A DNA stretch of 40,580 nt, from NCBI GenBank assembly GCA_022768695.1, contig JALEPO010000089.1, positions 1 through 40,580 of the forward strand. Reading direction: 5' to 3'. This document shows, piece by piece, positions 273 to 13,203 of the stretch. The notes below the pieces were generated by a model. It saw only the letters and a program-made list of their open reading frames with translations. It searched no databases and was not told where the DNA came from. This DNA is from Clostridia bacterium (GTDB taxonomy: Bacteria > Bacillota > Clostridia > UBA1381). How positions within the stretch are numbered: position 1 is the first letter of the stretch; every line of letters begins with the position of its first letter. Position numbers and translations under genes: made by a program.

Positions 273-3200
273 TTATTTAATATCCGACAATGAGATAATA
301 TTCACGCTGTCAGCTGTATACTGCTTTTCCATAACGTCCACAAGAGCACCGACTGTATCAAGGCTTGTCATCAGTGACACAGAACATTCGATTGCGGTAC
401 GGCGGATTTTAAAACCGTCGGAATTAACATCATTGCCTTTTTTAGGGATGTCGATAATCAAATCTACAATTCCGCTTCTGATTACGTCAAGAACATTTGG
501 AATGCCCTCGGAAATTTTCTTTGCAACCTGAACAGGAATGTCATGCTCCTGTAGCATTTTTGCTGTTCCGGCGGTTGCTATAAACTTACAGCCCATTGCC
601 GCAAAGCGTTTTGCTATAGGAAGGAAGTTTTCCTTATCAAGGTCGCGGACTGTGACAAGAATAGTTGAGCCTGTCTTTGGAATAGTAGTTCCTGCGGCTG
701 TAAAGCCCTTGTACATTGCTTCAAGGAAGCTCTTTCCAACGCCCAGCACCTCGCCTGTTGAACGCATTTCCGGACCAAGACTTACTTCAACACGCGGAAG
801 CTTTTCGGTTGAAAATACCGGAACCTTAATTGCAACAGTATTTGTAACAGGTGCAATTCCTGTTGAATAGCCCATTTCCTTCAGTGTATGACCAAGCATA
901 ATTTTTGTCGCAATATCAATTACAGGCACATTTGTAACCTTTGTGATGTAGGGGACTGTACGGCTTGAACGCGGGTTTACCTCGATAATATACAGCTCAT
1001 TTTTAAATTCGATAAACTGAATATTAATCATACCGATAACCTTTAACTCGATTGCTATTCTGTAGGTTACATCCTTGATTTTTTCTATAATTTCGTCAGA
1101 AATATTCTGCGGAGGATAAATTGAAATTGAATCTCCGCTGTGAACGCCTGCGCGTTCAAGATGTTCCATAATACCCGGAATAAGCACATCGGTTCCGTCA
1201 CATATTGCGTCAACCTCAAGCTCGCGTCCGCCGAGATAGCGGTCGATAAGAACAGGATTTTTTGTATCCTTCATAAATGCGTCGGTAAGGTAGCGCACAA
1301 GATCAATTTCATTTCTTGTGATTTCCATACCCTGACCGCCCAAAACATATGACGGACGTACAAGAAGCGGATATTCAAGCTTGTTTGCTTCCTCAATACC
1401 TTCTTTGACGCTCCATACGGCTTTGCCCTTAGGACGCTTTATATCAAGCTTTTCAAGCATTTCATCAAACTTTTCTCTGTCCTCTGCTTCGTCAATATAT
1501 TTTGGCTGAGTTCCAAGAACAGGAACATTCATGTCTGCTAAGAAGTTTGCAAGCTTAATAGCCGTTTGACCGCCAAACTGTAATATTACGCCATCAGGCT
1601 TTTCAAGCTCTATAATATTGTAAACGTCTTCTTCGGTAAGCGGTTCAAAATACAGCTTGTCTGAGGTGTCAAAGTCAGTTGAAACTGTTTCGGGGTTATT
1701 GTTGATTATAATAGTTTCAACTCCGGCAGATTCAAGCGCAAGCACACTGTGGACAGAGCAATAGTCAAATTCGATACCCTGACCGATTCTGATAGGACCT
1801 GAACCGATAACTATAACCTTCTTTTTGTCGGAAGGGAAGGATTCTGTAACCTCATCGTAGGTTGAATAGTAGTAAGGTGAAACGGCTTCAAATTCACCCG
1901 CACAGGTATCAACCATTTTGTATACCGGTTTAATTCCCATTTCAATACGCTTTTTATAAATTTCATCAGCGTTGCAGTTTATCAGCTCTGAAATACCCTT
2001 GTCTGAAAATCCCATTTTCTTATATTTCCGCATTATTTCCGGAGTGATTTCAGAAAGTGTATATTTCTTTAATTCTTCCTCTGCATCAACTATATTTTTT
2101 ATCTTTTGCAGAAAGAATGGATCCATACCGGTTATTTCAGCAAGCTTATCCATGTTGTAATTTCTTCTTATAAGCTCTGCCAAATCGAAAAGTCTTTCGT
2201 CATCAGGGACAATAGCGCGCTGTTTAAGCTCTACCGTAGTACGCTTTTTAGATGATGCTCTTTCAAGCGTATACTGATTGATCTCAAGTGAACGCACACC
2301 CTTAAGCAGTGATGACTCCAGTGTGTTTCCGATAGCCATAATTTCGCCTGTTGCCATCATTTTTGTACCGAGATTTCTTTTAGCGCCGAAGAATTTATCA
2401 AAAGGCCACTTTGGAATTTTTGTTACTACATAGTCGATAGCCGGCTCAAAGCAGGCGTATGTTTTGCCTGTAACGGCATTTTTGATTTCATCAAGATTAT
2501 ATCCCAATGCGATTTTTGCCGCAATTTTTGCGATAGGATAGCCTGTGGCCTTTGACGCGAGTGCTGATGAACGGCTTACACGCGGATTAATTTCTATAAC
2601 AGCATAATTAAAGCTGTCAGGATCAAGTGCAAACTGTACATTACAGCCGCCTTTGATTTCAATAGAATTAATAATATCAATAGCCGCTTTTCTGAGCATC
2701 TGATATTCCTTGTCCGCAAGTGTAAGCGCGGGCGCTACAACTATTGAGTCACCTGTGTGAACGCCGACAGGGTCAATATTTTCCATTGAACAGATAGTTA
2801 TACAGTTTCCGGCACCGTCACGCATTACTTCAAATTCGATTTCCTTCCAGCCCTTGATGGACTTTTCAAGAAGAACCTGACCTACTCTTGAAAGGTGCAG
2901 TCCCTGCGAAAGAATTGTGACAAGCTGTTCTTCGTTTTCAGCTATACCGCCGCCTGTGCCGCCCAATGTGTAGGCGGGACGTACAATCACAGGATAGCCG
3001 ATTTTTTCGGCAAAAGCGATACCTGATTCAACATCCGTCACAATTTCCGATGGGGCGATAGGCTGATTTGTACGCTCCATAAGACGCTTGAAGCTGTCGC
3101 GGTCCTCACCCTCTTTGATTGAGGGGATGGAGGTGCCTATAACCTTCATATTATATTTGTCGAATATTCCCTTGTCATGAAGCTCGCAGGCAAGATTTAG

Positions 3201-3485
3201 ACCTGTTTGTCCGCCCATTCCGGCGATTACTGAGTCAGGGCGTTCCTGCTGTATGATTTTTTCGAGATATTCAGCTGTAAGCGGCTCAATGTAGGTATGA
3301 GTTGCCATACCGCGGTCGGTCATGATTGTAGCAGGATTTGAATTGACCAGTATAACGTCAATACCCTCATCCTTTATTGCCTGACATGCCTGTGTTCCGG
3401 AATAGTCAAATTCCGCTGCCTGACCTATAATAATAGGACCGGAACCAATAACTAAAACTTTTTTAATACTTTTATCTAAAGGCAT
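273..3485 (-). CDS. carB: Carbamoyl-phosphate synthase large subunit
   Basis: 1070 aa with duplicated ATP-grasp halves ([48 protein letters not shown]); adjacent to carA. Confidence 0.98.
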
Positions 3486-3486
3486 T

Positions 3487-4539
3487 TTATTTTACCTCCT
3501 TTAAAAATCTGTCAAACAGCCAGCCGGTGTCAAGAGGACCGGGTGCGGCTTCCGGGTGAAACTGAACGCTCTGAACTTGGAGCGATTTATGTCTGATACC
3601 TTCGCAGGTACCGTCATTTACGTTTATAAATATTTCTTCCACATCGTCAGGATAGTCGGAAACGATATAATTATGATTTTGGCTTGTAATATATACATTG
3701 CCGGTCGTTAAGTCCTTAACGGGATGATTGCCGCCGTGATGACCGAATTTAAGCTTTTTTGTTTTGCATCCAAGCGCAAGACCGATAATCTGATGTCCCA
3801 TGCATATTCCGCAGATTGGGAATTTTCCGATTAACGCTTTTACAGTATCGACAGTGCCGGGAGCGTCAAGCGGATCGCCGGGACCATTTGATATAAACAG
3901 CATATCCGGATTATTATCTTCAATCAGTGATGCCGGAATATTTGCCGGGAATACCGTCACTTCGCAGCCTCGTTTCTGCAAGTCGCGCAGGATACCGTCC
4001 TTTGCGCCCATATCTATAAATGCAACGCGCGGTTTTCCGCCCTTATTTAATGTATATATCTGATCTGTGGTTGTATCCATAATGACATGAGAATTATCCA
4101 GAGTGCTCATAAGGAGCTTAACATCTGCGTCTGACGGCTCGCCCTGCATAATAACGCCTGTCATAACACCGTGGTCGCGGATAATACGCGTAATGGCACG
4201 CGTATCGACTCCTTCAAGTCCGACAACACCCTGATCCCTAAGGAAATCATCAAGATTCATTTCATTTCTGAAATTTGACGGATGATTGCACTTTTCTCTG
4301 ACAATGAATGCTTTAAGATTAGTGTGTTTTGCCTCCATATCCTCAAGATTAATGCCGTAATTACCGATAAGAGGGAATGTCATTGTAACAATCTGACCTG
4401 CGAATGATGGGTCTGTGAGCGTTTCCTGATAGCCCGTCATACCTGTAGTAAAAACAACCTCACCGACAATATTTTTTATGTCGCCGAAAAGCGTTCCGGT
4501 AAAACGTGTGCCGTTTTCCAGAATTAATTGTCCTTTCAT
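3487..4539 (-). CDS. carA: Carbamoyl-phosphate synthase small (glutaminase) subunit
   Basis: Class I GATase motif [14 protein letters not shown] and [10 protein letters not shown]. Start placed at the second in-frame ATG (MKGQLIL), which is better spaced from AAAGGAG than the upstream ATG. Confidence 0.97.
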
Positions 4540-4591
4540 ATTAATCATGCTCCTTTCGCTGTGCTGTTTTTTTGGTATAGTGCAAAAAAAA

Positions 4592-4624
4592 AGACAAATG
4601 ACAGATAAAATCTAATCATTGTCT
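4592..4624 (-). terminator. Attenuator-type intrinsic terminator in the carA leader
   Basis: Minus strand AGACAA-TGA-tt-AGAT-ttt-ATCT-g-TCA-t-TTGTCT followed by a run of T; the 5' arm overlaps the uORF stop codon. Confidence 0.75.
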
Positions 4625-4712
4625 ATTGCTTTAAAAATAAAAAAGAAAATAAAGGGCTCATATACGATTCTATTGGCGTTTGTATTTGTTTGTCAAGTAC
4701 AAAATCCGACAT
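4623..4712 (-). CDS. Short leader ORF (29 aa: MSDFVLDKQIQTPIESYMSPLFSFLFLKQ*) upstream of carA
   Basis: ATG 8 nt after GGGAGG, about 25 nt downstream of a consensus promoter; the stop codon abuts the terminator hairpin. Below the length cutoff of the ORF track. Confidence 0.7.
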   Translation of the reverse strand: MSDFVLDKQIQTPIESYMSPLFSFLFLKQ

Positions 4713-4743
4713 TTTCGTAACCTCCCTTTATCATGCTTGCAAC

Positions 4744-4773
4744 ATTATAACACAAAAAAGCTTATCTTGTCAA
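4744..4773 (-). promoter_or_regulatory. Sigma-A-type promoter for the carA leader (TTGACA-18-TATAAT)
   Basis: Minus strand TTGACA agataagcttttttgtgt TATAAT. Confidence 0.85.
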
Positions 4774-4894: not shown

Positions 4895-4923
4895 TTGACA
4901 TTATAGCCTGAGGAGAGTATAAT
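4895..4923 (+). promoter_or_regulatory. Sigma-A-type promoter for glnB-amt (TTGACA-17-TATAAT)
   Basis: Exact consensus -35 and -10 hexamers with 17-bp spacing. Confidence 0.9.
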
Positions 4924-4954
4924 AAGGGCATAGTTAAAGTTGTTAAGCACAAAG

Positions 4955-4997
4955 GTGTGTTTGCATGGAGATAAGTCCATGTAGATGCACTTTTTTT
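4955..4997 (+). terminator. Leader terminator unit 1 upstream of glnB
   Basis: 15-bp stem GTGTGTTTGCATGGA / TCCATGTAGATGCAC (with G-U pairs), loop GATAAG, then T7. Confidence 0.85.
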
Positions 4998-5034
4998 GCT
5001 TAACAAATACTTATAAATTAAAATTAAGCACAAT

Positions 5035-5084
5035 GGCGTGTTTGGCAGATTAGATTATAGTTTGCCGGACACGCCTTTTTGTTT
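5035..5084 (+). terminator. Leader terminator unit 2 upstream of glnB
   Basis: 13-bp stem GGCGTGTTTGGCA / TGCCGGACACGCC, then TTTTTGTTT; ends about 22 bp before the glnB ATG. Confidence 0.85.
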
Positions 5085-5457: not shown

Positions 5458-5487
5458 AAAGCGTTAAAATTGGGAGGATGATTGATT

Positions 5488-6774
5488 ATGAGTACAGAAT
5501 TATTAACGGCAGCAGTGGACTGTTTCTGGCTATTCTTTGGCGGTGTGCTGGTGTTCTTTATGCAGACAGGTTTCACAATGGTTGAGGCAGGCTTTACAAG
5601 AAGCAAAAACACAGGTAACATTATTATGAAGAACATAGTTGACTTTATGTTCGGTTCAATTATTTACTGGCTAATCGGCTATGGACTAATGTACGGCGAA
5701 GGTAACGGTTTTATAGGAATTCCGTTTGGAGATATGTTCATGAACGGTCTTGCCGGAGCTGAAAATGTTGATTACACAGCGTTATTCTTCCAGACGGTAT
5801 TCTGTGCCACATCAGCGACTATCGTATCGGGCGCTGTAGCTGGAAGAACGGATTTTAAAGCATATTGTATTTATTCGGCAGCAATTTCATTGTTTATTTA
5901 TCCAATCGCAGGTCACTGGGTTTGGGGCGGCGGATGGCTTTCAGAGCTTGGCTTCCATGATTTTGCCGGTTCAGCTATCGTACATATGCTTGGCGGTACA
6001 ATGTCATTTGTTGGCGCAGCTATCCTTGGTCCGAGAATCGGCAAGTATACCAAAGACGGCAAGGTAAATGTTATACCGGGTCATAACATTCTTATCGGCG
6101 CGTTGGGCGTACTTATCCTGTGGGTAGGCTGGTTCGGATTTAACCCTGCTTCAACAGGCGGGCTTTCAGAAGGCGGTGTAGAAGTTGCCGCAAAGGTATT
6201 TATCACAACAAACCTTGCTGCTTGTGCAGCTGCAATTACATCAATGTTCTTTACATGGTTCCGTTACGGTAAGCCTGATGTTTCGATGACATTGAACGGT
6301 GTGCTTGGCGGTCTTGTTGCTGTAACAGCTCCTTGCGATGTTGTTTCACCATTTGCATCTGTTATTATCGGTGTTGTAGGCGGTATCTTGATGTGTCTTG
6401 CAATTCCGTTTATTGATACAAAGCTTAAGATTGACGACCCTGTAGGCGCTATCAGCGTGCATGGTGTATGCGGTCTTTGGGGTACGATTGCTGTAGGCTT
6501 GTTCGCAAGCGATCCTGCATTGTTAGGCGATAGCTTCCTGCCGGGATTGTTCTACGGTGGCGGCTTAAAGGCTTTGGGAGTTCAGACACTGGGTGCGGTA
6601 TCACTTATTGTATGGGCAGCTGTAGTAGGTGGATTGATGTTCTTAATTCTTAAGAAGGCAGGTATTCTTCGTGCTAAGCCTGAGGATGAAATCAAGGGTC
6701 TTGATTCAACAGAGCATGGTCTTGCATCAGCATATCCTGACTTTGTAAAGTCATATAACGAAAATATCGGTTAA
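5488..6774 (+). CDS. amt: Ammonium transporter (Amt/MEP/Rh family)
   Basis: GFTMVEAGFTRSKNTGNIIMKN, AGHWVWGGGWL, DDPVGAISVHGVCGLWGTIAVG; 11-TM-type hydrophobic protein. Confidence 0.96.
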   Translation: MSTELLTAAVDCFWLFFGGVLVFFMQTGFTMVEAGFTRSKNTGNIIMKNIVDFMFGSIIYWLIGYGLMYGEGNGFIGIPFGDMFMNGLAGAENVDYTALFFQTVFCATSATIVSGAVAGRTDFKAYCIYSAAISLFIYPIAGHWVWGGGWLSELGFHDFAGSAIVHMLGGTMSFVGAAILGPRIGKYTKDGKVNVIPGHNILIGALGVLILWVGWFGFNPASTGGLSEGGVEVAAKVFITTNLAACAAAITSMFFTWFRYGKPDVSMTLNGVLGGLVAVTAPCDVVSPFASVIIGVVGGILMCLAIPFIDTKLKIDDPVGAISVHGVCGLWGTIAVGLFASDPALLGDSFLPGLFYGGGLKALGVQTLGAVSLIVWAAVVGGLMFLILKKAGILRAKPEDEIKGLDSTEHGLASAYPDFVKSYNENIG

Positions 6775-13081: not shown

Positions 13082-13174
13082 GTTATATACTGTCCCACAG
13101 GTATATTATGCCCTGCTGCCGTATAAATACAGCCCGACTGACAAAATTAATTGCCGTCTGTTCAGTTATATATA
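13082..13174 (-). promoter_or_regulatory. Probable NiCo (czcD-type Ni/Co) riboswitch aptamer
   Basis: Minus strand AACUGA.CAG...CAGUCGGGCUGUAUUUAUACGGCAGCAGG...CCUGUGGGACAGU matches the conserved four-helix core as I recall it; sits in the leader of a CDF transporter. Confidence 0.8.
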
Positions 13175-13203
13175 ATATGTAATATTCATGGTAATTGACA
13201 ATT

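Follow-up and report, generated by a model that had tools for sequence, protein, structure and literature searches.

A likely pyrBI-like, translation-dependent attenuator upstream of carAB in two families of Clostridia

Results

The carAB locus and its leader

The window analysed here, meaning the whole stretch of DNA, comprises 40,580 nucleotides of a Clostridia bacterium (GTDB lineage Bacteria; Bacillota; Clostridia; UBA1381; contig JALEPO010000089.1). The genes for carbamoyl-phosphate synthase lie on its minus strand behind a leader with the following features.

273..3485, minus strand: carB, carbamoyl-phosphate synthase large chain (Pfam)
3487..4539, minus strand: carA, carbamoyl-phosphate synthase small chain (Pfam; ATG 4539 preferred over 4548)
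4550..4555, minus strand: SD of carA, AAGGAG (sequence)
4584..4624, minus strand: intrinsic terminator, a stem starting within the uORF TAG and followed by nine T; its arms covary (z = -8.8)
4623..4712, minus strand: leader ORF (uORF), 29 codons including TAG (ATG 4712, TAG 4625-4623); open in 31/31 clusters
4631..4655, minus strand: U-rich tract (18 U in 25 nt), where RNA polymerase presumably pauses
4648..4656, minus strand: 3' arm (anti-SD strand) of the SD:U-tract helix, CCCUUUAUU, at the start of the U tract (fold and covariation)
4721..4726, minus strand: SD of the uORF, GGGAGG (sequence; by the detection rule an SD is present in 54/54 leaders)
4724..4732, minus strand: 5' arm of the SD:U-tract helix, GAUAAAGGG, overlapping the uORF SD (fold and covariation)
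4744..4773, minus strand: promoter, TTGACA-18-TATAAT (TTGACA 4773-4768, TATAAT 4749-4744)

The start of carA is likely the ATG at 4539 rather than that at 4548, because the SD (4555-4550) ends 1 nt before the latter. A sequence-only reading of this region had claimed the promoter, the SD, a 29-codon uORF, the stretch of 18 U at 4631-4655 and a terminator beginning within the UAG; each of these elements was found in its place on the minus strand, and all of these claims held. That reading missed the helix between the SD and the U tract. The promoter matches the consensus at 12/12 positions, with TG ahead of the second hexamer, and transcription is predicted to start at about 4737 (minus strand). 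The uORF encodes the peptide MSDFVLDKQIQTPIESYMSPLFSFLFLKQ, four TTNTTT motifs lie within the last 50 nt before the terminator, and the terminator stem, AGACAATGA...TCATTTGTC, begins at 4624 inside the TAG, with nine T at 4592-4584. The entire leader folds better than its dinucleotide shuffles (z = -3.2). A density of 18 T in 25 nt was reached by none of the 27,469 sense-strand 25-nt segments in the 17 long ORFs of the window, where the maximum was 16.

Elsewhere in the window, the region 4895-5080 (plus strand), which precedes an ammonium transporter gene at 5482-6774, holds a perfect divergent TTGACA-17-TATAAT promoter with two tandem terminator-like hairpins (4951-4994 and 5035-5075) after it. 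This region has no Rfam match, and it is possible that it represents another attenuator. A NiCo riboswitch (RF02683, 50.7 bits) lies at 13088-13175 (minus strand), upstream of the ORF 13052-12165.

The arrangement is conserved before carA in two families

Relatives were gathered with the carA protein as query, and the 54 leaders accepted fell into 31 clusters at 75% identity. All of them come from the GTDB family of the window or from the Monoglobus family, and all stand before carA; nearly every standalone carA in these two families carries the same series of a promoter, an SD, an ORF of approximately 23-47 codons starting with ATG, GTG or TTG, a pyrimidine- or U-rich tract and a terminator. 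TTGACA...TA(A/T)AAT is conserved ahead of all family leaders, and the family terminators are often of the GACAATG...CATTGTC type followed by 8-9 T. The parts, their order and their conservation are shown by sequence and comparison, and the check set beforehand, that the uORF, U tract and terminator be kept in the carA leaders of relatives, was passed.

The exceptions within the family are of two kinds. Where carA sits within another operon, behind an ornithine-carbamoyltransferase-like gene (L101, L102 and L105) or a dihydroorotase-like gene (L103, L104 and L107), the leader series is not found. The remaining exceptions (L031, L048 and L096) all belong to genus g11; these carA leaders have neither the uORF leader nor a PyrR element and carry a different T-rich leader. 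Beyond the family, the arrangement was not found in 68 of 80 further Clostridia carA upstream regions. The other 12 comprise seven with the arrangement, which are those of the Monoglobus family, and five from families f37 and f64 with PyrR-type leaders.

Among the pyr genes tested in the window's genome only carAB has such a leader; pyrR-pyrB-pyrC-pyrF, pyrE and pyrG have none similar. In 216 kb sampled from that genome, no locus other than the carAB leader combined a promoter, an SD, a uORF and a terminator with a tract of at least 15 T in 25. Among such arrangements in 400 kb of a relative (G014), just one bore a promoter, namely that relative's own carA leader. Stop-to-terminator distances, considered as a possible proxy for coupling, of 12 nt or less made up 16% of 50 in the window's genome and 38% of 92 in G014, as counted with a crude ORF caller and without calibrated controls.

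Selection acts on the nucleotide tract rather than on the peptide

In all 31 clusters (31/31) frame 0 stays open almost as far as the terminator, whereas frames +1 and +2 do so in 6 and 3, respectively. This count is partly so by construction, as the ORF search demanded an open frame; few leaders were lost thereby. Across the 31 clusters the stop codon lies no further than 13 nt to either side of the terminator core (-13 to +13). The encoded peptides are unrelated between clusters, their C-termini are not conserved, and substitutions among close relatives are distributed 338:225:334 over codon positions 1:2:3. Gln occurs in 15/31 uORFs, Arg in 18/31 and Phe in 31/31, the last because of the U tract.

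Towards the terminator the T content rises at all three codon positions (0.47/0.44/0.54 at positions 1/2/3, compared with 0.25/0.32/0.33 in the proximal leader and 0.17/0.30/0.34 in ordinary genes), and the enrichment peaks 11-30 nt ahead of the terminator core. Two leaders (L010 and L060) read the string CCCTTTATTTCT in the same frame, and a third (L011) reads it in another. Given that the peptide is unconserved, that U is enriched to a similar degree at each codon position and that the same string is read in shifted frames, the object of selection is the nucleotide tract within a translatable frame and not the peptide. The lack of peptide conservation and the nucleotide-level enrichment themselves rest directly on sequence and comparison. 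The NusG pause motif TTNTTT (PMC9226507, PMC7819879) occurs in 26/31 tracts, only mildly above expectation (mean 1.4 vs 1.0 in base-shuffled tracts). U is favoured over C and remains high beyond the anti-SD arm (mean 7.5 of 14 nt), with few U in this part in L034, L098, L100 and L147; part of the U enrichment may nevertheless serve merely for pairing with the SD.

The SD pairs with the U tract, and no antiterminator is seen

Helices were assessed with an alignment-free permutation test, in which the duplex energies for a pair of regions are taken within each leader and set against those obtained after leaders are permuted. Every region enters each permutation once, which cancels effects of composition, and column alignment was avoided for pair counting because the spacing of the SD and the position of the tract vary; the test ignores shared ancestry among leader groups. 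Besides that between the arms of the terminator, covariation was seen between the SD region and the U-rich tract, with z = -6.5 for the 31 clusters and -5.1 for 25 stricter clusters, and two control region pairs showed no covariation in the same test. In the predicted folds of all 31 clusters, 40-100% of the SD pairs with the 3' pyrimidine-rich region, and in 26/31 clusters this pairing is better than with dinucleotide-shuffled tracts (mean z = -1.4). Pairing of the leader with either terminator arm gave z = +0.4 each, and therefore no antiterminator is seen. The terminator and SD:U-tract helices, and the lack of a covarying antiterminator, are shown by sequence and comparison. Riboswitch-like alternative pairings were also considered and rejected: none covaries, and there is no Rfam aptamer.

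The uORF leader and the PyrR RNA element exclude one another

The genome from which the window comes encodes the PyrR protein, in a pyrR-pyrB-pyrC-pyrF operon. That operon has a short leader with neither a PyrR RNA element nor an attenuator (L138, G000:C101), and it is possible that its PyrR acts solely as an enzyme or in some other way; no attenuator was found at pyrE or pyrG of this genome either. The PyrR RNA element (RF00515) was not found anywhere in the window's genome, including its carA leader, and was absent from all family genomes bearing the uORF leader. Across 70 genomes of the family it occurs only in genera g12 and g15, where five of seven hits lie on the carA contig some 1.3-1.4 kb upstream of carA; judged from these coordinates, the elements likely sit at the start of a pyrC-carA operon. 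Seven Monoglobus-family genomes have no RF00515, and genomes of f37 and f64 do have it. From this distribution it follows that the uORF leader and the PyrR element are mutually exclusive in this sample, which is shown by comparison. Such exclusion is as would be expected if the one had replaced the other, and among the indirect evidence for a response of the leader to pyrimidines it is the strongest.

In f37 and f64, five carA leaders (L148, L149, L150, L155 and L159) have a PyrR-like element directly before the SD of a short uORF. These elements score below the RF00515 gathering threshold (E 0.002-0.08); their closing strand overlaps the uORF SD, and the uORF mostly runs towards a terminator. 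PyrR might possibly block translation of the uORF in these leaders.

Discussion

Based on sequence and comparison, we propose that the carAB leader of this gut Clostridia lineage is a translation-dependent transcription attenuator that works like that of pyrBI and most likely senses UTP, a reading to which we assign a probability of roughly 0.68. The leader meets the membership tests for an attenuator of this kind, namely a translatable leader ORF with an SD upstream of a pyrimidine gene, a U-rich tract selected at the nucleotide level, a terminator within reach of blockage by a ribosome finishing the ORF (judged by the distance of the stop codon) and the absence of an antiterminator structure. 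Since the 29-aa leader peptide has no Pfam match at E 0.001, we say that it works like the PyrL system and not that it is homologous to it. We also infer that PyrR-RNA control of carAB has probably given way to this leader, whose U tract would serve as an anti-SD strand as well.

The pyrBI-type logic suggested by the sequence-only reading is thus supported by comparison, with the UTP signal, the pausing and the coupling still inferred. Its contrast with PyrR-binding attenuation held for the RNA element, which is absent; the PyrR protein is present in the genome. The alternatives that it had offered, an arrest peptide ending in FSFLFLKQ and sensing of Gln codons, both fared badly.

Our model, which is inferred and rests on no experiment as regards translation of the uORF, pausing, coupling, occlusion by the ribosome, the UTP signal or the timing role of the SD helix, is as follows. 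The layout would leave one obvious route to expression, a ribosome that has reached the uORF end while polymerase makes the terminator, and this would depend on two variables, how long polymerase dwells in the U tract and how accessible the uORF SD is. When UTP is low, RNA polymerase would dwell in the U-rich tract near the end of the ORF; with the tract still inside the polymerase, the SD would be unpaired and open, and a ribosome could load, close up and, near the stop codon, cover the 5' arm of the terminator, such that carAB is read. When UTP is high, polymerase would pass quickly, the emerged U tract would fold back onto the SD and shut the ORF to late ribosomes, and the terminator would form and stop transcription. 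Since the 3' arm of the SD helix is the start of the U tract, the helix could form only after polymerase has moved on, and it would in this way couple access to the SD to polymerase speed, open when slow and closing when fast.

That UTP scarcity acts on polymerase dwell is established for pyrBI (PMC10135430), and in E. coli ribosomes at such stop-terminator distances repress terminators, with an especially steep dependence for pyrBI (PMC4824070). Counting against a pyrBI-type reading, Firmicutes are predicted to be uncoupled, with transcription running ahead of translation (PMC10953045). A bolder reading holds that the U tract is one element with two jobs, a nucleotide-sensing pause site and the anti-SD strand of the leader ORF, that the time polymerase spends in the tract determines how long a ribosome has to start, and that a ribosome-dependent attenuator is thereby possible without general coupling. 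We put this forward tentatively, being inclined, by a small margin, to doubt it.

The main rival keeps the same attenuator but has uORF initiation as the regulated step, with an unknown ligand, a protein or the general state of translation opening the SD hairpin and the tract being pyrimidine-rich only in order to pair with the SD. In its favour, nothing apart from the terminator covaries more strongly than the SD:tract helix, and the f37 arrangement, with a PyrR element directly before the uORF SD and the uORF leading towards a terminator, makes control of uORF initiation plausible. However, U is preferred to C and stays high past the anti-SD arm, and there is neither an aptamer-like conserved loop nor an Rfam match; we consider this rival unlikely.

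We give still less credence to the remaining two. An amino-acid or arrest-peptide attenuator, with the ribosome stalling at a hydrophobic end or at Gln, Phe or Arg codons, could draw on the FSFLFLKQ end of the window's peptide and on the presence of Phe in every uORF. Given that the peptides are unrelated and lack a conserved C-terminus, that substitutions are not concentrated at third positions, that the tract is read in different frames, that Gln and Arg are each missing from many uORFs and Phe is explained by the U tract, and that there is no antiterminator for a stalled ribosome to free, we rejected both the arrest peptide and the sensing of Gln or Arg; an attenuator of the trp/his type was rejected likewise, there being no conserved run of codons for a single amino acid and no alternative antiterminator hairpin. 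Unconserved peptides and U enrichment at all codon positions fit a pause tract that acts at the nucleotide level. PyrR-dependent attenuation through a diverged PyrR site is also very improbable. It is favoured by PyrR being the usual regulator in Firmicutes and being encoded next to pyrB in this genome, but RF00515 was not found in this or any other leader-bearing genome by the same search that finds it in the sister genera, and no antiterminator was seen.

Ribosome-dependent attenuation is considered rare in Firmicutes. A family-wide attenuator that needs a timely ribosome at the terminator would lend itself naturally to testing for local coupling in this phylum, and the sister genera offer an instance of one regulatory logic, PyrR RNA or uORF, standing in for another at the same gene. 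The literature searched, which left out most subscription papers, describes no attenuator of the pyrBI type from Clostridia. What is new here is the phylum, the target operon, the probable replacement of PyrR RNA and the SD:U-tract helix; homology to pyrBI has not been shown.

Comparison with known systems

The carA motif (SRC-12-1) of Polynucleobacter is likewise a cis element upstream of carA, but it is a single extended imperfect hairpin of betaproteobacteria that was proposed as a riboswitch candidate (PMC8632094). Leaders of the vmlR/tlrB type in B. subtilis share a uORF, NusG (TTNTTT) pausing and ribosome-dependent attenuation in a Firmicute (PMC9226507, PMC6851288); they differ in taking antibiotic-stalled ribosomes as input and in using antiterminator/anti-antiterminator pairs. 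PyrR-binding attenuators (RF00515) also control pyr genes including carAB through a leader terminator, and sister genera use them at the pyrC-carA operon. In contrast to the leader described here, which lacks the element, they rely on binding of PyrR to an anti-antiterminator hairpin and need no translation of the leader.

The closest parallel is pyrBI (pyrL) of E. coli and its gammaproteobacterial relatives, for which pyrB leaders were taken from plasmid and E. coli collections. Common to both systems are a leader ORF, an intrinsic terminator at or within the end of that ORF, a U-rich tract in the distal leader and a first-step pyrimidine gene downstream, and neither has an antiterminator or a regulator protein. 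They differ in phylum (Pseudomonadota vs Bacillota) and target (pyrBI vs carAB); the pyrBI ORF runs through the terminator, whereas the Clostridia uORF usually stops at its edge, has no similarity to PyrL and precedes a weaker, A+U-rich terminator. In the predicted fold of E. coli pyrL (L284 4034-3900) the SD is complementary to the U-rich pause tract, CGGGAGGA with UCUUCCCG, and similar pairing is predicted for the pyrB leaders of Klebsiella, Proteus, Photobacterium and Aeromonas (L285-L288). While the helix is above permutation controls in Clostridia, in the gammaproteobacterial leaders it is not clearly above shuffles, except in Photobacterium. To our knowledge there is no published statement of such pairing in E. 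coli pyrL or its relatives, and the passages that we searched are silent too. The SD:U-tract helix is a further mechanical component, open to testing, which the textbook system of E. coli may have as well and, if the bolder reading is true, a U tract with two jobs may be an overlooked part of pyrBI-type attenuators across phyla.
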